64,000 nt of DNA from the NCBI RefSeq assembly GCF_022834715.1, contig NZ_BQKC01000001.1:966501-1030500 (forward strand), in the 5' to 3' direction. The position numbers and the translations under genes are program-made. The stretch comes from Granulimonas faecalis. GTDB taxonomy: Bacteria > Actinomycetota > Coriobacteriia > Coriobacteriales > Atopobiaceae. Position 1 is the first letter of the stretch. Each line of letters starts with the position of its first letter. The notes under the pieces are model-generated. The model had not been told where the DNA came from. It saw only the letters and a program-made list of their open reading frames with translations, and ran no database searches. Below are positions 49,450 through 61,601 of this stretch, in pieces.

Positions 49450-50829
49450 CTACTCGCCGCCGCCTTCGGCCACGCCCCTCGCCCAGGCGCGCACCTCGGC
49501 TCCCACCTGCGGGTCGTCGACGTAGGCCCCCAGCGCGTCGCAGAGGAACCGCGCGTATGTCTCCTTGAGCCGGTGGTCGCCCACGACCTTGGCCTCTGTG
49601 CCAAAGCTCGCGAGCCTTCCCATGAGGGCGGCGCCGTCGGACGCCGGGACCTCTATGCGGGTGCGCCCGTCGTCGAGCACCCGCACGGAGTTCTTGCGGG
49701 CCAAAGGCGAGTCCTCGCTGTCGGGGTCGAAGGAGTCCGCGATGGCCTTGAGCACCGAGCCCTCGGCCTCCAGCTCGAGCATGAGGGGGTCCGAGGTGGC
49801 ATACATCTCGTAGCTCGTCTCCAGGGTGTAGCGCTCCTGCTCGGTGAGGCCGGCCCGCTTGCCCGGGGCCGGGTCAAGGAGGCGGTAGGGGAGCAGGCCG
49901 AGATGGCCCTCGTCGGCCCAGTCCTCCACGCTGCCGGGAATGACGCGGTCGAGCCGGTAGTTGAGGTAGCCGTTGTTGTGCACCACGTAGCGGGGGCCGT
50001 CGCAGGTCTCCTCCACGGTCACAAACCGGGCGCTCATGTAGTAGCGGCCCCGGTCCTCGTGCACGGCCACTGGCAGCAGCAGCCGACGCATCTCACCGTC
50101 GTGGCGGGGCTGGGCCACGAGGTCGAGGTCGGGGCCCAGGGTGCCGTAGATGAGCGACACCGGGGCGATCGTGGCGTCCCTTCGGCCGCCCACGGACGAG
50201 AGCCGCCCCGCCGCCCGGGCCACAGCCTGATAGGTGGAGAGGAGCGCCGCCGACGACTCGGCGCGCGGCCGGTAGCTCATGCAGGGCGCCACGGACCCGT
50301 GCTCGGGGGCGTGGTGCAGCAGCTTGACCTTTTCCATGAGGCGGTCCTTGGCCCGGGCGTCGGCAAGGCGCGAGTGGGCGATGGCGTCTGCCAGGATGAA
50401 GACCTCCTCGGCCGAGAAGGGCCGTTCCACGTGGTAGGTGAAGCGGTTGCCGCCGCGGTCGCGCGAGGTGACGGTCCGGGTGGGCTCTCTGCCCGGGTCC
50501 GCGATGACATCGCGACGCGCGAACAGCTGGTTGATGGCGCCGAAGTCGCGGCGGATCCGCTGGAGCGCGTTCTCGTGGGCGCGGTCGGAGTCATACTGGG
50601 CGTCGGAGACGAGCAGCCCGTAGCCGCGCTCGAGGGCCGTCAGGATGTCGTCGGGGGCATCCAGGTCGCCCTCGTCCCAGGCGCTCGCCACGAGGGTCAC
50701 ACCCTCGCCGTCCTCCTCGGACGTGCGACGGCACAGGAGGTCCCACAGCGCGAGCATGCGCTCGGGGCTCGACGCCTTGCGCGGTGCGAGGTCTTCCTCG
50801 ACATGCGTCTCTCTCTTATGGCCGGCCAT
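49450..50829 (-). CDS. WYL-domain transcriptional regulator
   Basis: A 459-residue regulator. A winged-helix segment lies near residues 68-100 (HENALQRIRRDFGAINQLF). A WYL-type ligand-binding core is at about 190-300 (SLIYGTLGPDLDLVAQPR ... GRYYMSARFVTVEE ... YRLDRVIPG), followed by a WCX-like C-terminal domain. WYL regulators often control defence or DNA-repair genes and sense nucleic acids or nucleotides. GGAGGCGCC precedes ATG 50829. It lies at the edge of the accessory region. Confidence 0.83.
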   Translation of the reverse strand: MAGHKRETHVEEDLAPRKASSPERMLALWDLLCRRTSEEDGEGVTLVASAWDEGDLDAPDDILTALERGYGLLVSDAQYDSDRAHENALQRIRRDFGAINQLFARRDVIADPGREPTRTVTSRDRGGNRFTYHVERPFSAEEVFILADAIAHSRLADARAKDRLMEKVKLLHHAPEHGSVAPCMSYRPRAESSAALLSTYQAVARAAGRLSSVGGRRDATIAPVSLIYGTLGPDLDLVAQPRHDGEMRRLLLPVAVHEDRGRYYMSARFVTVEETCDGPRYVVHNNGYLNYRLDRVIPGSVEDWADEGHLGLLPYRLLDPAPGKRAGLTEQERYTLETSYEMYATSDPLMLELEAEGSVLKAIADSFDPDSEDSPLARKNSVRVLDDGRTRIEVPASDGAALMGRLASFGTEAKVVGDHRLKETYARFLCDALGAYVDDPQVGAEVRAWARGVAEGGGE

Positions 50830-51760: not shown

Positions 51761-53131
51761 ATGGGCCCGTTTGACAAGGTGATCGGCTACCGGAGGGTCG
51801 TCTCCGAGCTCGAGCGCATCGCGTCGGTGCTCGTAGACCCAAGCCCCTACGAGCGTTTGGGCGCCCGCGTCCCAAACGGGCTGCTCATCGCGGGCGAGCC
51901 GGGCCTCGGCAAGACCCTCATGGCCCGCTGCTTCGTGGAGGCTGCCGGATGCCCGTGCGTCACGCTGCGGCGTACCGTCGCAGGCAACGAGTTCCTCGAC
52001 CAGATCCGCGACGCCTTCGTCAGGGCCGCGGAGGAGGCACCCTCGATCATCTTCCTCGACGACCTGGACAAGTTCGGCAGCGGCGACCGCAACCGCGCCA
52101 GCGAACCGGAGTACGTGGCGGTGCAGAGCTGCATCGACGACTACGCAGGCAAGGGCGTCTTCGTGCTCGCCACAGCCAACAACGTCCTGCGCGCCGTGCC
52201 GCCGTCGCTCGTGCGTGCCGGACGCTTCGACCGCACCATCTACCTCGAGCGTCCCGAGTACGAGGACGCCCGCCGCATCGCCGCGCACTACCTGAGGGAG
52301 CACTCCATCCCCAACACCATCGACCCCGACGTTGTGGCGCAGTTCCCCATGTCGTGCGCCGAGCTCGAGGCCCGCGTGAACGCCGCGGCCGTCGTCGCGG
52401 CATCGGAGGGGAGCGACGTCGTGACGACGGAGCACGTGGTGCGGGTGTGCGTCGAGCACTGGGAGGGGAGGGCCTGGCGCCCCTGCAAGGAACCCATGGA
52501 CTGGCAGGCGGCCGCCAAGACCAAGCGGTACTGCGACCGTGCCCGCTGCGCCTGCCACGAGGCCGGCCACCTGCTGGTCATGGAGCTCGTCGACCCCGGG
52601 TGCTCGGGCTTCGGGGTGCTCCTCGGCTCCGGCGCCCGGCGAGGGCGCGGCTTCACGAGGGTGCGGCGCGACCACAAGCCCTTCTCGCCCGACCGCACCC
52701 CCGAGGACGTGCAGGTCCTGGTGGGTCTGGGCGGGCTCGTGGCCGAGGAGGTCGCCTTCGGGGCATGGTCCACGGGGCCCCACAGCGACCTTGAGAAGGT
52801 CACCGACATCGTCTACGGCGGCCTGATGCACGGTGTGGGCGGGGTCCAGCACCTCAACGTGATCGGAGAGCGCAACCGGAGGTGCACGCCGCCGTCGCCC
52901 GAGCGCATCGCCTGGCGCGAGGCGGCGGCCGTCGACCGGATCCAGCAGGACATGGCCGAGGCCCGCTCCCTGCTCATGGGGCACTGGGCCCTGCACGGCC
53001 AGGTGGCGCAGCTCCTCTACGACCGCGGGATCGTCTACGGCGAGGAGGTGCGGGCCATGCTGGAACGGGAGGGGGGCGGCACGACCGAGGGGGACGGTCT
53101 AGGCGTCGGCGCCCCGTCGGAAGTAGCCTGA
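51761..53131 (+). CDS. FtsH-like AAA+ metalloprotease lacking the membrane anchor
   Basis: A 456-residue protein combining an AAA+ domain and an M41 peptidase domain. Walker A is GEPGLGKT at 45-52, Walker B is IIFLDDLDKFG, and the second region of homology is RAGRFDRTIYL. The zinc motif is H266-EAG-H270 in CACHEAGHLL, with the third ligand D343 in STGPHSDLEKVTDI. FtsH proper has two N-terminal membrane helices and ~640 residues; here the AAA+ domain starts within 20 residues and no helix is present. GAGGAGACCC precedes ATG 51761. Its end overlaps the convergent XRE gene by 33 bases. Confidence 0.88.
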   Translation: MGPFDKVIGYRRVVSELERIASVLVDPSPYERLGARVPNGLLIAGEPGLGKTLMARCFVEAAGCPCVTLRRTVAGNEFLDQIRDAFVRAAEEAPSIIFLDDLDKFGSGDRNRASEPEYVAVQSCIDDYAGKGVFVLATANNVLRAVPPSLVRAGRFDRTIYLERPEYEDARRIAAHYLREHSIPNTIDPDVVAQFPMSCAELEARVNAAAVVAASEGSDVVTTEHVVRVCVEHWEGRAWRPCKEPMDWQAAAKTKRYCDRARCACHEAGHLLVMELVDPGCSGFGVLLGSGARRGRGFTRVRRDHKPFSPDRTPEDVQVLVGLGGLVAEEVAFGAWSTGPHSDLEKVTDIVYGGLMHGVGGVQHLNVIGERNRRCTPPSPERIAWREAAAVDRIQQDMAEARSLLMGHWALHGQVAQLLYDRGIVYGEEVRAMLEREGGGTTEGDGLGVGAPSEVA

Positions 53132-53341: not shown

Positions 53342-53410
53342 GGAAGCCCCTCCCTAGAGCTTCCATCCTTAATGAGACACTGCTTGAAAGGCACCTCGAT
53401 ATAAGTGACA

Positions 53411-55207
53411 ATGCAGTCAACTGACATCAGTTTAGACTCAGAAATGGAGAGAGCAGTGGCAGAGTTGCAAGCAGGCAAGAAAACGGTTCTCGAGTTGCTC
53501 GGAAACGAGAAGGCGAGCTTTCATATCCCCAGCTATCAACGTCCTTACGCCTGGGGTGTCGAGGAGTGCGAGACGCTCTGGGACGACATCTGCTCCTTTA
53601 CTGTCCCCGACAACGATCCGAACGGCTTTGTGGCTGACAGCGAGTATTTTCTCGGTCCTCTCGTAACGTTCAAGCAGGCCGATTCTGGCTTCTACGAGGT
53701 CATCGACGGTCAGCAGCGACTGACCACGCTCATGCTGCTCCTGCGTGTTCTTTACTCGAGGCTTGAGCACATGAACGACAAGGACAATGCCTCGCTCAGG
53801 GACGACATCGAAAAGGCGATATGGAAGGTTGGCGAGTTCGGCAAACCCATAGCAGGGGAGTCAAAACTTCAGTCCTCCGTCGCGTCCGATGACGACCTCG
53901 GGGAGCTCGGTGCCATTCTCGCGTCTGGCATCGTGGATGACGACATGACCAGTCGCTATGCGGCGAACTACCGCTTCTTCCTAAACGCTGCGGATGATTA
54001 TGTCAGTAAGTACCCGGACTATTTTAAGTTCCTGGTCAATCGGCTGTTGAGAAACGTCATCCTGCTCCCCATCGAGTCCGAGGATAGGGACTCCGCTCTC
54101 CGCATCTTCTCGACGCTCAACAATCGCGGCCTTCCCCTCTCGGATTCAGACATCTTCAAAGCCGCGATGTATGAGCACTACCGAAGCCGGGGAAGGGCAG
54201 AGGAGTTCGACAGCCGTTGGAAGGAGATTGAACGGCAACTTGCCGGCCCTCTGCTCGCCGAGGACTCGCCGATGACCGAGCTGTTCCGCCTCTACATGGG
54301 ATACCTGCGTGGACTCAGCTATGCGGGCTCGACCAACCGCCCCGCCGTCCGAGACTTCTTCAGCCGGGACCGCAACGCCATCCTTAAGGAGGAGAAAACC
54401 CTCAGCGACCTCGAGGACCTCGTCGATTTTTGGAATCGTTACGAGGGTGGGGAAGGGTTCTCCGACCCTGTGCTAAAGGATTTCTTCGTACTCAGGTTCG
54501 CGCCCAACAAGCTCTGGCAGGACGCCGTTTCTAACTATTACCTCATGAATCGCAACGACAGCGGGCGTCTTGACCAGGATGCCTTCCATAGCTACCTCCA
54601 GCGTCTCATCGCGTTCCTGTACGGTGCCGTGGTGGCCGGTGCCACGAGCACCTGGGAGCGTCGCGAGATCGACAAGGAGGCCGGGTTCCTGGCAGGCCGC
54701 ATCGACCGCTCGCCCTTTGAAGGCCGCTTTACCGAACACGAGATGCGAGATGCGCTGAAAGTGCTCGGTCCTTGGAAGAGGATCAACAAGGGAATTCTCG
54801 CCTGGCGAATGATGAGCAACGCGGGCCAGGCACCTATCGAACTGGGAACCGACTTCGATGTCGAGCACATCTACGCGAGGAAGCGTCATCAGAACCACCC
54901 AGGCGAGATCACTGACGATCAGCTGGAGTCCCTCGGCAACAAGGCCCTGCTCGAGAAGAGAATCAACATCCGTGCGGCGGACTACGACTTCTCCGACAAA
55001 CGCGCCATCTACCGCGGACTGACTGCAGGGAAGGCCGGTACCGCCGTCCAGGAACTCCTCGATCTTGCTGACGGCAACGACGACTTTGCCTCCCGCGAGA
55101 TTGACGAACGCACGGCAGAGATCGAAGGGTCGTTCCTGAGGTTCTTGGAGCAGGCCGGCGTGGTCATCCCCGAGGGTCTTTCCAACGACGATTCCGAGGA
55201 GGGCTGA
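53411..55207 (+). CDS. GmrSD-like (DUF262 + DUF1524) nuclease
   Basis: A single-chain member of the GmrSD/DUF262 group, known in type IV restriction of modified DNA and in other phage defences. The N-terminal DUF262 domain begins FHIPSYQRPYAWG and has D99-GQQR in VIDGQQRLTTL, the ParB-like NTP-binding/nuclease motif. The C-terminal DUF1524 HNH-type domain has D483-VE-H486 in FDVEHIYARK and LGNKALLEKRIN. The start is uncertain: ATG 53411 (shown), GTG 53405 or ATG 53444; none has a good ribosome-binding site. Codon use is more AT-rich than in the housekeeping genes. First gene of a tight four-gene run. Confidence 0.88.
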   Translation: MQSTDISLDSEMERAVAELQAGKKTVLELLGNEKASFHIPSYQRPYAWGVEECETLWDDICSFTVPDNDPNGFVADSEYFLGPLVTFKQADSGFYEVIDGQQRLTTLMLLLRVLYSRLEHMNDKDNASLRDDIEKAIWKVGEFGKPIAGESKLQSSVASDDDLGELGAILASGIVDDDMTSRYAANYRFFLNAADDYVSKYPDYFKFLVNRLLRNVILLPIESEDRDSALRIFSTLNNRGLPLSDSDIFKAAMYEHYRSRGRAEEFDSRWKEIERQLAGPLLAEDSPMTELFRLYMGYLRGLSYAGSTNRPAVRDFFSRDRNAILKEEKTLSDLEDLVDFWNRYEGGEGFSDPVLKDFFVLRFAPNKLWQDAVSNYYLMNRNDSGRLDQDAFHSYLQRLIAFLYGAVVAGATSTWERREIDKEAGFLAGRIDRSPFEGRFTEHEMRDALKVLGPWKRINKGILAWRMMSNAGQAPIELGTDFDVEHIYARKRHQNHPGEITDDQLESLGNKALLEKRINIRAADYDFSDKRAIYRGLTAGKAGTAVQELLDLADGNDDFASREIDERTAEIEGSFLRFLEQAGVVIPEGLSNDDSEEG

Positions 55208-55210
55208 CCC

Positions 55211-55477
55211 ATGGGCATCCTGGACAAAGACTGGAAAGAGTACGACGAGGGTTCCTGGGCCATTCGCGACGGTCAGGTGGAGATCGAGGTGAGAGCCTAC
55301 GAGCATGAGGGGAGAAAGCGGTACGGCTGGGCACTGAGGCAGTGCGGCGCCGTCATTCGCAGAGGGGAGCTTGAGACCCTTCTCGCCGCACAAAAGGTCG
55401 CCAAGGAGGCTTTCTCGTCGGAGTCCTTCGATATCGACCAGAACTGGGGTCTTGAGACGGAAGGGACTGGTCGGTAA
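55211..55477 (+). CDS. 88-residue protein in the GmrSD-like operon
   Basis: No family recognised. A charged alpha/beta protein (starts MGILDKDWKEYDEGSW; EIEVRAYEHEGRKRYGWALRQ looks like a beta hairpin), without membrane segments. It begins three bases after the GmrSD-like stop behind GAGGAGG and ends in TAATG, overlapping the next start, so it is translated with both neighbours. Confidence 0.72.
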   Translation: MGILDKDWKEYDEGSWAIRDGQVEIEVRAYEHEGRKRYGWALRQCGAVIRRGELETLLAAQKVAKEAFSSESFDIDQNWGLETEGTGR

Positions 55478-55986
55478 TGGCTTCGAAAGGGTCTCAGATC
55501 ATCAGGGAGCACGACGATCTGAACCAGCGGGTCAGCTCCCTTGTCGACCGCAAGAACCGGCTCGAGGACCAGCTCGAGCAGAGGAGGCGGGACATCCAGG
55601 AGAAACAGGATGCCTTTGCGAACATCGCCCCGAGGATGGAAGCGGAGAGGAGTAACTACCGCTCGGTGAGCCTCATGAGGGCAGAGGCGCAAAAGCAATA
55701 CGACGAGATCCAGGGGCAATGCTGGTCCCTGATCGAGAGGCGTGATGAGGCCAGGAAAGGCGACGAGAAGCGGCTGCGTCCCTTCAAAAGGAAGCTTGAC
55801 CGGGCGCAGCGTGCCTATGAGAGGGCTCTCGAGCGGCGAGAGCAGGCCAAACAGAGGCACGACTCCGCCAAAGAGCATGGAAGGTTTCGCGGCCATAACG
55901 GCCGTCACGGATACCGTGCGCAGCTTTGGGGGCGACGCCTCCACCCGATCCATGAAGCAGTTTCAGAGGAGTGTCAGTCAGGGTAA
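55477..55986 (+). CDS. coiled-coil protein of the GmrSD-like operon
   Basis: A 169-codon frame. Residues 1-133 are highly charged coiled coil (LNQRVSSLVDRKNRLEDQL, KLDRAQRAYERALERREQA). After about SAKEH the last ~35 residues turn into a basic non-helical tail. The plus-one frame from this point encodes the next protein, whose own helices continue, so a frameshift joining the two is possible. The 110-base overlap with that gene is unusually long. Confidence 0.68.
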   Translation: MASKGSQIIREHDDLNQRVSSLVDRKNRLEDQLEQRRRDIQEKQDAFANIAPRMEAERSNYRSVSLMRAEAQKQYDEIQGQCWSLIERRDEARKGDEKRLRPFKRKLDRAQRAYERALERREQAKQRHDSAKEHGRFRGHNGRHGYRAQLWGRRLHPIHEAVSEECQSG

Positions 55987-57100
55987 CCTCGCTGATGCTT
56001 CCAACGCTTCTGCCGCCCGTGCCCTGGAGCTCGACGAGGCAGAAGAGGCCGTCATCCTCGCTCAGGAGGATCTTGAGGACGCTGCAGAGGAGTACGAGGA
56101 GCAGCAGAATGCCCTTGTCGACTCACGACGCGAGATCGAGGATGCCGGCAACAGGGCCGAGGCACTGGTCAACGGTTTTGTCATCCAGATGATGAACAAC
56201 GACCGAATCATCGCATGCGCCGAGAGAGCAATCGACAGCCTTGATGAGCTATCGCAGCAGACGCATCTCCTGGAAGAGGCAGCAAAAGACGAGGAGGAGC
56301 TCAGCAACTCGTTGAGCAAAACCGAGCTCGAGCTTGCGTCGACCCGCGAGGAGCTTGCCGCCATCGAGGGTGCGGCTACTGAAGCACGCAGGCGCCGAAG
56401 CGTGAGAAGGATCGTGCTGGGAGTCTTGGTAACGGTCGCTGTCGTGGCGCTCGCTGTCTGTGCCATCAACCTGACTCCAGCTAGTACCGATGCCGGTAGT
56501 GCTCCAGCTGACAGCTCTTCAACTGACGAGGTTGCGTCGCCAGCAGCGGGACCGGCAGCGGAGAACAGCAGTCCGGAGGAGGCTTCGTCTTCCGACAATC
56601 TGCCAAATGCCACGACAGCAGTGGAAACATCAGACAACGACATTGACATTGATTATCAGGCTCAAGAGCTTAATGAGATATACGAAGAGCTTGCACAGAT
56701 TGACAGCCGAATCTCGATTGCAGCGCAGCAATTTAACGACAGTTACCTCACCGGTTCGTTAGAGCAAAGACGTGCGTATGCCACCGATTGCCTACGAATA
56801 GTCGAGGACATCACCGGCACATGGACTCCGCTTCAGGATAAGCTGCGTAGCGGGGCGTTTTCTCCGCAATCCAGGCTATACGAGGCCGCACAGGCACTGG
56901 ACAACCTCTGTAACGACCTGTACCAAAGGGCACATCTTCTCTATTCCGCCTGGGATCTTGATACTAGGTACGCCGATCCGATCCCTGCAAAAGACGACAT
57001 CCTTGGCATACTAGAGTCCCGTAACAACGAACAGGGTATTAACATCTATAAAGAACATTTCGATAAGAGCTATCCTCTGTGGGCCGAACAATACATGTAA
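55877..57100 (+). CDS. coiled-coil membrane-anchored protein of the GmrSD-like operon
   Basis: A 407-residue protein from ATG 55877. Long helices fill about 45-170 (ALELDEAEEAVILAQEDLEDAAEEY and others). One membrane helix follows (RIVLGVLVTVAVVALAVCAI, about 178-198), then ~60 residues of Ser/Ala/Glu/Asp-rich linker and a helical domain of ~135 residues ending WAEQYM. No family recognised. It may be translated separately (no clear ribosome-binding site) or as an extension of the upstream coiled-coil frame by +1 shift. Confidence 0.65.
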   Translation: MEGFAAITAVTDTVRSFGGDASTRSMKQFQRSVSQGNLADASNASAARALELDEAEEAVILAQEDLEDAAEEYEEQQNALVDSRREIEDAGNRAEALVNGFVIQMMNNDRIIACAERAIDSLDELSQQTHLLEEAAKDEEELSNSLSKTELELASTREELAAIEGAATEARRRRSVRRIVLGVLVTVAVVALAVCAINLTPASTDAGSAPADSSSTDEVASPAAGPAAENSSPEEASSSDNLPNATTAVETSDNDIDIDYQAQELNEIYEELAQIDSRISIAAQQFNDSYLTGSLEQRRAYATDCLRIVEDITGTWTPLQDKLRSGAFSPQSRLYEAAQALDNLCNDLYQRAHLLYSAWDLDTRYADPIPAKDDILGILESRNNEQGINIYKEHFDKSYPLWAEQYM

Positions 57101-57402: not shown

Positions 57403-58572
57403 TTATTCGCGGTGTTCCCTCTTCCGGTTGTGGATTGCATGTCGCAGTTCGAAGCGAGCTCTATTATCCAATTGCCTGTAATTAAGAAGCTCTTGGAACG
57501 TGGCGAATCCTCGAGCGAACTGCCTGCCAAGGCCCTTAATCGACTGCAATTCCGAGCGGTAGCTCTTCCGTGCTTCCATTTGTTTGCAGTATTCAGCCCA
57601 AATATCAAACTCTTTGGAGGTGAGAAGGCGGTACAGGGAACCTCCATCGCCTATACTCTCTTCTTTAATGGAAATGACCATGTCGTCAAGGCTCGTCTTG
57701 ACAAGCCCGTCGATTGTCGGCGGTTCGACTGCGGTTTTCATGTGCCAGAGATTGTCGACAGTAGCCACCAAGTGGACACCGAGGTCGCGGCCCTCCTCCG
57801 CAACAGGCCTTAGACCGTCCCAGTCATACAGCCAGCTGTCGGCGTCCATATCGCTTGCGAAGACGAACAGCTCGGGGCCCGTTTGCATCCCTAGGGCCAG
57901 AAGTCTCTTGCGCTGTTCCATCTCAGCCGTCAGCCAATCGACGGAAGCTGACTTGGCATAGGGGCTACAGGCACGTGGGATGCAAAGTGGAGAAGCGTCG
58001 TCACTGCAGCGCTTTGACGACGGCCCGATTGCGACAAACTGAACCCCGCATCTTTCACCAAGAGCTCCTGCAACAACATCTACCAGCGACTCTTGTGGTC
58101 CTCCCGTTCCGAACACGCAGAGCTCGACAAGGTGAGGGGTTTCGGCAAAGTCGAGGCGTACCGGCTCGCCGCTCTCATCGGCTCCAAGCTCGAAAGAAAG
58201 GTCGTCCACGGGGACTTCGGGAAGGGCGAGGAGCTCTTCATCGGTGAGTTCGGCGTGATAATACTCATTGCTCGCGATGAGGCGTTCCGTGCGCACAACC
58301 GCATCGTCGAGTGCTCGGTAGAGGGAGGCGGCCTTTGCAACATATGCCTCTTGCGCAAGCTCTGCCTGCTTGCGAATGCCGTTCATGTCGCCGTCGCGCC
58401 TTGCAAGGCTCATGAAGGCGAGGTGCTTCTTGACGTCCCCTTGGAGCCACTGGGAGTAGAAGTCTGGGGTATCTTCACTGGCTCCTGCCACGCCGCTCTT
58501 GGCTTCCTCAATAAGACTGTGAATGTACTTCGCCTTTTTCGTCTTTAGGTCATGGTCTTCTACCGGCCTCAT
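57403..58572 (-). CDS. FtsK-like protein with lost Walker A, short form
   Basis: A 389-residue protein. The N-terminal ~125 residues are helical. The remainder follows an FtsK/SpoIIIE ATPase pattern: PHLVELCVFGTGGPQESLVDVV (about 146-167) sits where HLLxxGxTGSGKS is expected, SVDWLTAEMEQRKRLLA matches the FtsK EMERR helix, and PELFVFASDMD and GVHLVATVDNLW match Walker B and the ATQRP strand. The catalytic lysine and acidic pair are lost. AGGAGGAACA precedes ATG 58572. Related in layout to the two genes upstream. Confidence 0.65.
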   Translation of the reverse strand: MRPVEDHDLKTKKAKYIHSLIEEAKSGVAGASEDTPDFYSQWLQGDVKKHLAFMSLARRDGDMNGIRKQAELAQEAYVAKAASLYRALDDAVVRTERLIASNEYYHAELTDEELLALPEVPVDDLSFELGADESGEPVRLDFAETPHLVELCVFGTGGPQESLVDVVAGALGERCGVQFVAIGPSSKRCSDDASPLCIPRACSPYAKSASVDWLTAEMEQRKRLLALGMQTGPELFVFASDMDADSWLYDWDGLRPVAEEGRDLGVHLVATVDNLWHMKTAVEPPTIDGLVKTSLDDMVISIKEESIGDGGSLYRLLTSKEFDIWAEYCKQMEARKSYRSELQSIKGLGRQFARGFATFQELLNYRQLDNRARFELRHAIHNRKREHRE

Positions 58573-58754
58573 TGTTCCTCCTGTCTGTTTTGAGTGACAT
58601 GCCTGAATCTAATTCTACGAGGCCGCAGGGGTGCAGGTCTGTCCTATGGTGGTAGATTGTGACCCGTATCACTCTGCGTATGGATCCCATGCAACGAGGG
58701 TCGTTGCATGCTCCCAGGCCACTCCATGGAGTCGTTCTGACGACGGAGTTTTGG

Positions 58755-59045
58755 GTGGGGGAGGGCGCCCTCATCGGTCCTCCTGCTCGGGCAATTCGGC
58801 CAAAGCCCTCCAATGCGCGATAAAACTGCAGCGAAGGGCCGTCGATGTGCGATTTCGGTCCGTTTTCGCGCATCGGCGGCCTTTGGGAGCCAATCAACCG
58901 CGCATCGGGGCGGCTTCGCAGCATGGCCGCGCACTCGCCGCCCTTCGCTGCGCCATATCGCGCACTGGAGCCCCTTCGCGGTGCTGCATCGCGCATCGGG
59001 GTCCTTCGCCGCGCGGCCGTCGCGCACTGGAGCCCCTTCGCGGCG
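58755..59045. repeat. mirror-symmetric repeat array B
   Basis: In the 552-base gap upstream of the short FtsK-like gene, TGCGCG/TGTGCG boxes at 58814 and 58846 face CGCGCA boxes at 58867, 58899, 58928, 58959, 58990 and 59021. Steps are 32 on the left, 21 across the centre, and 32, 29, 31, 31, 31 on the right. Each right unit continues YYGG..CCCTTCGC. The centre is GATTTCGGTCCGTTTTC. No protein-coding pattern supports these bases. Confidence 0.8.
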
Positions 59046-59124
59046 GGATGGCACCGATCCGCACGTCCAGGCGATTGCGCCAGGCGCCCGAGTGGCGCGA
59101 AGTCCGTGGTCACCGGCCCGTGTC

Positions 59125-60345
59125 TTACGGGCAATACCTGAGGGCAAGGGCCTTGAACGTGCTCTCGTCCATCGGATCGAAAGCGAGCCCAAGCCCCGAC
59201 CCATCCCCATCGAAGCTGTTGGACGACCAATACATTCCTCCAGCAATCGGCAGTTCCGGCCTCAAGGAGCAGTCATTTGGCAATGACTCCACACGGCAAA
59301 AGGAGAAGGCGTTGGCCGAATCCTTGTGGCACCCGCAGTACGCCCCGGGCAAAGACATCGTTGCCGCAAGGTGAACCCCGTAGCGAGCGCCGTTCCTCTC
59401 GATCTCGCGAATGGCGTGTTTTGCGACCCCGACGTCCCCCTTCAGCAGATGCTCCACATCGGGGATCGATATGACCATCAACCTCATGGGGTCGCCGAGT
59501 CCCGCGGACCCATGGTGGTAACAGTCGTGGTAACAGAGCCTAATCGGCGCCTCGGCGGACGACCAGTTGAACATCTCGAATCCGCAGCCATAGGGGTCGA
59601 GGGCGGTCCTCCGCCTGTTGAGCTCCTTGAGCCCCTTTTCCAGCGCCTGTTTCGTCGAGCAGACCTCCACATGCTGGGGAAGAAGCCTGTACCTTTGCAG
59701 GGGGTCGTCCTGCCGCTCACCCATGACCAGATGCACGGAATGGGGTCGTGCCACAAGGGAGATCTGGATAAGCGCCGTGTCGACGAGCCCTTCGGCGTCG
59801 GGGCGTGGTCCGTTCACAAACAGGTGGCCGCCGAATTCTCCAAACCTGATGTGGATCGGATCGCCCGTTATCAGGTCAACGCCCAGGGCGCATGGCACCG
59901 CCTGCACGTCACTCCACCCCTGGCTCACTGCCTCATCGTTCGGGGCCCCTGGTCCATCTCTCAAGAACTCGATAAAACGGCAGACGACGTTTGCCGGGAG
60001 TCTCCGCATATGGGAGGACGCGACATCGACGACAACCTTTCCTCCCGCATCAAACGCTTCGGGGATCATCCTCCATGCGCGAAAGGTCACGGACATAAAG
60101 TCGAGCGACATGCTGTTGACCGCAGCGCAAAACATGTCGGCGTCGCCTCTGGACCGCACCTCGTAGACAAGCCTGTCCCCGTAGGGCCCGACCGTCCGGC
60201 TCACTTCGAAGGCGTAGGGGAGCGTGCCGATGGCCCTGGCCACCCGTTTCAGCCGCTCGCGCCTCCGTATCATTCCTTCCCGGTCACCCCAGTCATCGGG
60301 GAGCAGCGGGTTCTTCCCCATCATGTACCAGGGATTCTCGGGCAC
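59125..60345 (-). CDS. FtsK-like protein with degenerate nucleotide-binding site (paralogue 1)
   Basis: A 406-residue protein. Residues 150-210 read PCALGVDLITGDPIHIRFGE then HLFVNGPRPDAEGLVDTALIQISL, matching FtsK's GxDxxGxPxxxDL-HLLxxGxTGSGKS-xxNxxIxSL with the P-loop replaced by GPRPDAEG (179-186). VHLVMGERQDD, ELNRRRTAL, LMVISIPDVEHLL and GVHLAATMSLP follow in FtsK order. The start is GTG 60345 (GGAGG upstream), aligned with its paralogue, whose N-terminus also has NPW......LLP.GWG. No membrane segments. Function unknown. Confidence 0.72.
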   Translation of the reverse strand: MPENPWYMMGKNPLLPDDWGDREGMIRRRERLKRVARAIGTLPYAFEVSRTVGPYGDRLVYEVRSRGDADMFCAAVNSMSLDFMSVTFRAWRMIPEAFDAGGKVVVDVASSHMRRLPANVVCRFIEFLRDGPGAPNDEAVSQGWSDVQAVPCALGVDLITGDPIHIRFGEFGGHLFVNGPRPDAEGLVDTALIQISLVARPHSVHLVMGERQDDPLQRYRLLPQHVEVCSTKQALEKGLKELNRRRTALDPYGCGFEMFNWSSAEAPIRLCYHDCYHHGSAGLGDPMRLMVISIPDVEHLLKGDVGVAKHAIREIERNGARYGVHLAATMSLPGAYCGCHKDSANAFSFCRVESLPNDCSLRPELPIAGGMYWSSNSFDGDGSGLGLAFDPMDESTFKALALRYCP

Positions 60346-60410
60346 GGTGAACCTCCAACTTATGCGACGTATGGCATCACTGGTGGCTTCAGACGACCGT
60401 TCAGGCGCCC

Positions 60411-61601
60411 TTACGCAAAACGCGCCACGATCGATCTGAAGGTTCTCTCGTTTATCGGTTGAAAGGCGGCGCAAAGGCGTCTGCCATCCCTGCGCGAAGT
60501 CTCTTGAGAGCAGGTGAACAACCCGTCGACGAGAAGGCCGAACTCGCGCGGCGGGTGGCCACATCTGTCGAGCCAGAAGACGAGATCGCTGCCCCGATGC
60601 AGCGCCTCGCAACGCGTCGACCCCCACACCGCCGTCTGCACCCCGTACTGCGGCCCGAACTCCGTGATCCGGTAGAGGTCCTCGAGCTGGCGCGGCCCGG
60701 CATCTCTCGTCAGCCGGTCGATGTCCCTGAGAACGAGGACGAAGAGGTCGTGAATCCCCTCGATAAGTGGTCTCATCTCGTCGTTTTCGTCCAGGTCGTT
60801 GAACGATGCGTAATCGAGACGGAAAGCCTCGAGCTTTCGCTTGCGTCTGTCGAGCTCGAGGGCGGCCATCTCGATCGCCTCCCAGGGTTCGACTATATCG
60901 ACCTTCTGGGGAAGCTCGCGGAAGCGTGACAGGTCGTCGTACTCACAGGATCCCAACACGAGGTGCACCGTCCGGGGGAGGTATCCGAGGGCGAGGCCGA
61001 GCAGTATCGTGTCGAGGATTCCGTCGGCCTCGTGGCGCGGCCCTTTTACGAAGACCACAGGGGATCCGGCTCTGGACTCGAAGCAGACCGAGACGGGGCG
61101 ACCCGTCAGCATGTCGACACCACAGACGCAGGGGGTGCTGTCAGCTCGGAGCAGGGCTCGAGAACCGCCGCTGCGATTGACGACCACGTCGGCAGCGAAC
61201 TCCAGGCATTTCGTATGCCAATGACGCGCGAACGTCTCCAGGACCTCGGGCTGGAGCCTGGTGACCGCCGTCGGGAACACATCCACCGTGACCCGCATCC
61301 TTCCGTTGTTGGAATGGGGAGAGGCGCAGTTTGCCCACAGGCCGGCGTGCAGCGGATTACGGGTCGAGCCGTTCACCTCTTGGCAGAACCTTCTCGCGCG
61401 GCTTTCGCTCGTACACTCGAAAACCAGCCGGTCCGAGTAGGGGCCGATCGTGCGCTGCAGCTCGTAGGCAAACGGAAGCGCCCCCAGCGACCGGGCGATG
61501 ATGTCGAGCCAGAAGCCGCGCTTCCTCATGGAGTCGGGCGACCCCCAGCCCTCTGGAAGCAGAACGTTCTCTCGCATAGACGACCAAGGATTCAAGAACA
61601 T
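60411..61601 (-). CDS. FtsK-like protein with degenerate nucleotide-binding site (paralogue 2)
   Basis: A 396-residue paralogue of the next gene downstream. Shared blocks: NPW......LLP.GWG at the N-terminus, ALPFAYELQRTIGPYSDRLVFE (about 41-62), PCVCGVDMLTGRPVSVCFE, GPRHEADGILDTILLGLAL (P-loop position, lysine missing), TVHLVLGSCEYDDLSRFRELPQ, DRRKRKLEAF and LFVLVLRDIDRL. ATG 61601 has GGGGGAGG upstream. It leads a minus-strand pair with a 65-base gap to its paralogue. Array C lies upstream of it. Confidence 0.72.
   Translation of the reverse strand: MFLNPWSSMRENVLLPEGWGSPDSMRKRGFWLDIIARSLGALPFAYELQRTIGPYSDRLVFECTSESRARRFCQEVNGSTRNPLHAGLWANCASPHSNNGRMRVTVDVFPTAVTRLQPEVLETFARHWHTKCLEFAADVVVNRSGGSRALLRADSTPCVCGVDMLTGRPVSVCFESRAGSPVVFVKGPRHEADGILDTILLGLALGYLPRTVHLVLGSCEYDDLSRFRELPQKVDIVEPWEAIEMAALELDRRKRKLEAFRLDYASFNDLDENDEMRPLIEGIHDLFVLVLRDIDRLTRDAGPRQLEDLYRITEFGPQYGVQTAVWGSTRCEALHRGSDLVFWLDRCGHPPREFGLLVDGLFTCSQETSRRDGRRLCAAFQPINERTFRSIVARFA

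Follow-up and report, generated by a model that had tools for sequence, protein, structure and literature searches.

Free-standing FtsK-class proteins with a degenerate nucleotide site on a putatively acquired segment of the Granulimonas faecalis genome

Pseudo-ATPases of the FtsK class are known mainly as domains within EccC/EssC, in which an active motor accompanies them. EccC/EssC itself is a membrane protein that carries three ATPase domains in tandem; D2 works there together with an active D1 as part of a secretion system, and EccCb1 provides a natural stand-alone D2-D3 protein (PMC6954902). In the DUF domain of EccC5, the Walker A segment reads GEREQVL, is one residue shorter and has an extended helix and an Arg salt bridge; no ATP binding is seen by DSF or ITC, and DUF domains still matter for secretion (PMC11154593). 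The FtsK/SpoIIIE motor, composed of alpha and beta domains, is a hexameric DNA translocase driven by ATP. Inactive subunits can be mixed into its rings and are tolerated when they are not adjacent (PMC4728128). A further group with FtsK-like architecture, the TcpA-type conjugation coupling proteins, includes solved structures, among them ATP-bound forms.

Can this fold exist as a free-standing protein once its nucleotide site is gone? Within a window of 64,000 nucleotides of the Granulimonas faecalis genome, the whole stretch of DNA analysed here, three minus-strand genes (P0001, P0002 and P0003) had been put forward in a preliminary description as adjacent FtsK-like proteins devoid of the Walker A lysine. 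The three open reading frames are intact and lie where that description placed them, each with a purine-rich ribosome-binding site a few bases 5' of the gene (AGGAGG for P0001, TGGAGG for P0002 and GGGAGG for P0003). The features of the locus are as follows.

53405 to 55207, plus strand: GmrSD-like (DUF262/DUF1524) protein, 600 aa, GC3 0.74; Pfam GmrSD_N 1e-36, GmrSD_C 1.1e-6
55477 to 57100, plus strand: membrane-anchored protein with a coiled coil, split between two overlapping frames (55477-55986 and about 55877-57100), GC3 0.61-0.75
57403 to 58572, minus strand: P0001, FtsK-like, 389 aa; from about residue 117 to 320 it resembles the FtsK beta (RecA-like) domain, and both terminal parts are predicted to be helical
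57838 to 57867, minus strand: Walker B site in P0001, FVFASDMDAD; Asp retained, catalytic Glu replaced by Met
58087 to 58110, minus strand: former Walker A of P0001, GTGGPQES, with Glu in place of Lys
58757 to 59045, no strand assigned: downstream repeat array of 31-bp units, a direct copy of the upstream array
59125 to 60345, minus strand: P0002, FtsK/EssC-class pseudo-ATPase, 406 aa, GTG start, paralogue of P0003
59443 to 59481, minus strand: Walker B site in P0002, LMVISIPDVEHLL; Pro in place of the first Asp, Asp at the Glu position
59788 to 59811, minus strand: former Walker A of P0002, GPRPDAEG
60411 to 61601, minus strand: P0003, FtsK/EssC-class pseudo-ATPase, 396 aa, with an N-terminal domain and a RecA-like domain
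60708 to 60743, minus strand: Walker B site in P0003, FVLVLRDIDRLT; Arg in place of the first Asp, with the Glu position occupied by Asp
61020 to 61043, minus strand: former Walker A of P0003, GPRHEADG, which in the alignment is shorter than GxxGxGKS by one residue
61716 to 62040, no strand assigned: upstream repeat array, sharing about 90% identity with the downstream array over 207 bp at a spacing of 2983 bp

P0003 and P0002 adjoin on the same strand with a gap of 65 bp. A repeat array parts P0001 from this pair, and P0001 is convergent with the plus-strand pair of GmrSD-like and coiled-coil genes.

The Walker A motif GxxGxGK[ST] is absent from P0001, P0002 and P0003. GTGGPQES and GPRHEADG were placed on the FtsK segment GxTGSGKS by profile alignments, and GPRPDAEG through the alignment of P0002 with P0003; these readings, and the absence of the lysine in all three proteins, agree with the preliminary description. 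Its further statement that the Walker B acids are lost holds in part: the catalytic Glu of P0001 and the first Asp of P0002 and P0003 are gone, but P0001 keeps its Asp, and P0002 and P0003 carry an Asp at the Glu position. Where hhhhDE would be expected, DE reads DM in P0001, PD in P0002 (core string ISIPDVEH, from the paralogue alignment) and RD in P0003 (core string VLRDIDRL, from the profile alignment). The FtsK sensor segment ATQRP reads ATVDN, ATMSL and WGSTR in P0001, P0002 and P0003, respectively. As read from these motifs, the nucleotide site is broken in all three proteins, which would be expected not to bind nucleotide.

The replacement P-loop common to P0002 and P0003, G-P-R-x-[DE]-A-[DE]-G, resembles that of the EccC DUF domain (D0): both are shortened, have Arg as the third residue and lack Lys. 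The DUF domain belongs to a membrane-bound motor, and the P0002/P0003 profile reaches a score of only 21 against it, which is not significant; in view of this lack of significant homology, the resemblance of the GPR segment is one of structural analogy.

On what grounds are these proteins assigned to the FtsK class? P0001 matches the FtsK motor of E. coli (phmmer, E 0.0023), NCBIfam EccCb (E 7e-4) and an FtsK profile (19.7 bits); against Pfam FtsK_SpoIIIE (PF01580) it scores 11.3 bits, under the curated cut-off of 24. In a tblastn-style search, it finds matches at E<=0.01 in 124 of the 150 relative genomes (best E 3e-7), nearly all of them long canonical-type FtsK frames, mostly of 800-990 aa. 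Its beta-domain blocks, including LGxDxxGxP and GLxK, follow the FtsK order. Taken singly, P0002 and P0003 match no Pfam or NCBIfam family, FtsK_SpoIIIE included, and the sequences in the PDB yielded no relevant match to P0002 or to a two-sequence profile made from P0003 and P0002 (A2). The A2 profile does match FtsK open reading frames that carry GxTGxGKS, with E values down to 1e-10. All three proteins are thus related, remotely but beyond chance, to the ATPase class of FtsK and EssC, and the FtsK/SpoIIIE-like nature originally proposed for the genes is borne out. Compared with FtsK/SpoIIIE they are short, only about 400 aa, stay under the PF01580 cut-off, have an altered Walker B, and lack the Walker A lysine, the sensor Gln and a membrane or gamma domain.

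Structural modelling extends this assignment to the fold of one of the three proteins. A ColabFold model of P0003, built from a two-row alignment, is of low confidence (mean pLDDT 52.5), and its best fold match is the FtsK motor (Foldseek, E 5.6e-7), with EccCb1-D2 and EssC next. VIA-align gave Z 11.2 against P. aeruginosa FtsK (281 residues, rmsd 9.1), Z 10.4 against the D2 of stand-alone EccCb1 (188 residues, rmsd 4.1) and Z about 9.5 against TcpA (rmsd 8-9), to which no sequence match of P0002 and P0003 was seen. An rmsd of about 9 A to FtsK indicates that domain orientation is poorly modelled. For P0003, a RecA-like FtsK-type fold is supported by this low-confidence model. The model of P0001 (pLDDT 35) is unusable, so its assignment as a RecA-like core with FtsK-type blocks rests on sequence. 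Position in the structural alignment suggests that the N-terminal domain of P0003 and P0002, which is extra relative to EssC D2 and EccCb1, may correspond to the FtsK alpha domain; comparison of that domain with the FtsK alpha domain at the sequence level gave no support.

Are P0002 and P0003 closer to FtsK or to EssC D2? Their profile scores best against the EssC D2 of relatives (hhalign 94.7, E 3.4e-13) and second best against FtsK (69.7, E 1.8e-8), two values that are not strictly comparable because the alignments differ in diversity; EssC D1 and D3, taken as internal controls together with the DUF, score 28 and 19. Single sequences searched against the A2 profile reverse the order, with FtsKs at 38-40 bits and EssCs at 20 bits. 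In a mixture-model tree, P0002 and P0003 sit on a long stem (2.3 changes per column) that falls within none of the groups and attaches, with weak support, close to where FtsK, D1 and D2 meet; P0001 groups with FtsK (92/70). AU tests rejected neither a clade with D2 (0.46), nor a clade with FtsK (0.19), nor a union of all three proteins (0.20). From such a tree and such tests, it is possible that the lysine was lost independently once or twice among the three.

Loss of the lysine is itself found in EssC D2. Among 29 D2 stretches of the same class, many P-loops lack it (GAQDSGADG, GSAASDVDG, GLGESGVET), and others are intact (GMTGSGKT, GSPGSGKT). Such a change is therefore ordinary in this class, though the free-standing form is not. 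The D2 domains of L064-L091, with the lysine lost in many and kept in some, form a natural series for loss of an ATPase site.

Orthologues of P0001, P0002 and P0003, with or without the lysine, were found neither in 150 relatives nor in 398 genomes of the class, nor in plasmids, phages, or pattern scans of genome and viral contigs (two scans each, with exact short peptide patterns that distant relatives would escape); 140 genomes of the family likewise held none for P0002 or P0003. Accordingly, recurrence of the lysine loss or of the tandem arrangement elsewhere, as the preliminary description had envisaged, drew no support. A close homologue with an intact GKS motif, which it had named as a sign of simple decay, was looked for and not found in the collections searched. 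Two candidate relatives were dismissed: a Walker-less match in L057 proved spurious, being antisense to a cysteinyl-tRNA synthetase frame, and L094:3878-4774 is no stand-alone relative but an EssC D2 fragment, joined to an unrelated frame close to a type VII locus and probably a pseudogene piece.

A single intact FtsK exceeds the Pfam cut-off in this genome, and its gene lies about 15 kb away from P0003. We rejected P0002/P0003 as a recent duplicate of this host gene, given that the A2 profile misses it at E<=0.01. Membership in a type VII secretion system was also rejected: EssC, WXG100 (PF06013) and YukC/EssB (PF10140) were not detected in the genome (96% complete). The three genes have GC3 values of 0.62-0.79 (0.62 for P0001) as compared to more than 0.91 for flanking genes, and the GmrSD-like and coiled-coil genes fall in or close to the same range. 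Based on this low GC3, the segment 53405-61601 looks acquired.

The GmrSD-like neighbour noted at the outset is real, as its Pfam matches show; a functional link to it did not emerge, P0001 being convergent with that operon. Among the products of genes around the locus, the GmrSD-like one matched a PADLOC model, and there were weak matches for an AAA protein (51761-53131) and a WYL protein (49450-50829); none of the models matched P0001, P0002 or P0003. The AAA ATPase has a Peptidase_M41-like C-terminal part (FtsH/IetA-like) and host-like composition, and adjoins the foreign segment. The split coiled-coil gene may reflect a frameshift, a sequencing error or overlapping genes. The C-terminal domain of its product has matches in 117 of the 398 class genomes, and relatives that were read out carry a zinc ribbon ahead of this domain. 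As a lead the gene was set aside: the domain is common in the class, and the short flanks of 19 relatives held no FtsK-like or GmrSD gene.

The genes are also interleaved with repeats, as first described, in that the two arrays flank P0002-P0003. Both are GC-rich, with units of about 31 bp that are partly inverted inside each array, and a local duplication, or recombination of one array with the other, is plausible. Weaker copies, mostly of 66-77% identity, occur at other intergenic sites beside ordinary genes. Because the family is dispersed, the arrays do not define P0002/P0003 as a cassette; we rejected them as cassette ends, and the flanking repeats seem incidental to the pseudo-ATPase genes, with no functional link apparent.

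Is the loss of the nucleotide site a product of decay or of selection? That P0001-P0003 are decaying remnants, FtsK-/EssC-like motor fragments of an integrated element that stay open by chance, would fit their occurrence in a single genome, the foreign composition of the segment, the strong divergence of the P0002/P0003 stem and the adjoining coiled-coil gene, whose split over two frames makes some decay in the segment possible. We consider this unlikely, since it would leave unexplained three open frames of about 390-406 aa, each with a ribosome-binding site, and the pattern of conservation between P0002 and P0003. These two are clear paralogues, as had been noted (about 33-34% identity, E 1.5e-48, 383 aligned codons), and at the first, second and third codon positions their identity exceeds that expected from composition by 0.30, 0.41 and 0.08, respectively. 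When P0003 was substituted neutrally to the P0002/P0003 divergence, about 6 stops arose and the frame stayed open in 0 of 200 runs, in a simulation of substitutions that does not count indels. Moreover, the replacement P-loop is still common to both copies after duplication: the 30-column block that contains it is 43% identical, versus 33% overall, and the lysine was probably gone before the two genes duplicated. These data argue for selection on the P0002/P0003 pair and not for decay. To this extent the earlier suggestion that the loss was selected holds; P0001 has no paralogue to compare, so that all support for its constraint comes from the open frame, the ribosome-binding site and codon-position composition.

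What might such proteins do? Structural partners, decoys and sensors were the roles named in the preliminary description. As decoys, or as dominant-negative subunits, they could enter an active FtsK-type ring, that of the host or the translocase of an incoming element, and slow or redirect it. The single intact host FtsK lies close by, P0002 and P0003 are without membrane and gamma parts, and rings of this class do accept inactive subunits (PMC4728128). Co-assembly, however, requires matching interfaces, and the P0003/P0002 profile does not find the host's own FtsK; rings also bypass single dead subunits, so that inhibition would take several, and we regard a decoy function as distinctly improbable. 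Alternatively, P0002 and P0003 might be free-standing substrate-recognition adaptors derived from EssC D2, of type VII origin and now without a secretion system. D2 yields their best profile score, the D2 of relatives shows a similarly degenerate P-loop (GAQDSGADG), EccCb1 sets the stand-alone precedent (PMC6954902), and the D2 clade is not rejected (p-AU 0.46). The bit scores of single EssCs and FtsKs point the other way, EssC, YukC and WXG100 were not found in the genome, and P0001 groups with FtsK; a D2-derived adaptor thus appears rather doubtful.

The explanation we favour, to which we attach about an even chance, is that P0003 and P0002, with P0001, are nucleotide-independent RecA-like scaffold subunits of some complex, encoded on an acquired segment. 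They would be pseudo-ATPases that kept the RecA-like core while the canonical nucleotide site became unusable. In P0002 and P0003, the GPR segment probably continues into a first helix that is extended, a feature that crystallography showed for the EccC5 DUF. The two proteins might be co-expressed as a pair of structural subunits and assemble a static partial ring or platform via the usual FtsK subunit interfaces; such a platform would present a partner or substrate and would not pump DNA. P0001 would be a third, different dead module, and the GmrSD-like nuclease and host FtsK are candidate partners. Against this scaffold reading stand the lack of any orthologue that would show the lysine loss to be conserved between species, the weak P0003 model (pLDDT 52) and the unusable one of P0001, the failure of sequence comparison to tie the N-terminal domain to FtsK alpha, and that of the trees to place P0002/P0003 within either FtsK or EssC D2. 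A bolder version, in which the three dead proteins form a hetero-oligomeric, ATP-free ring or clamp, possibly a DNA- or partner-holding accessory or defence part that acts with the GmrSD-like nuclease, strikes us as a long shot.

We conclude that P0001-P0003 are a real, slightly unusual, free-standing variant of known pseudo-ATPases. EccC/EssC combines three ATPase domains in one membrane protein, whereas P0001-P0003 are single-module proteins in a genome where EssC, YukC and WXG100 were not detected. Only one genome carries the set so far, and the case rests on evidence from within the locus. A free-standing set in a genome without that system would, if true, mean that the FtsK fold has been retained purely as an assembly surface, and would permit a direct test of the role of this fold once ATP is removed.
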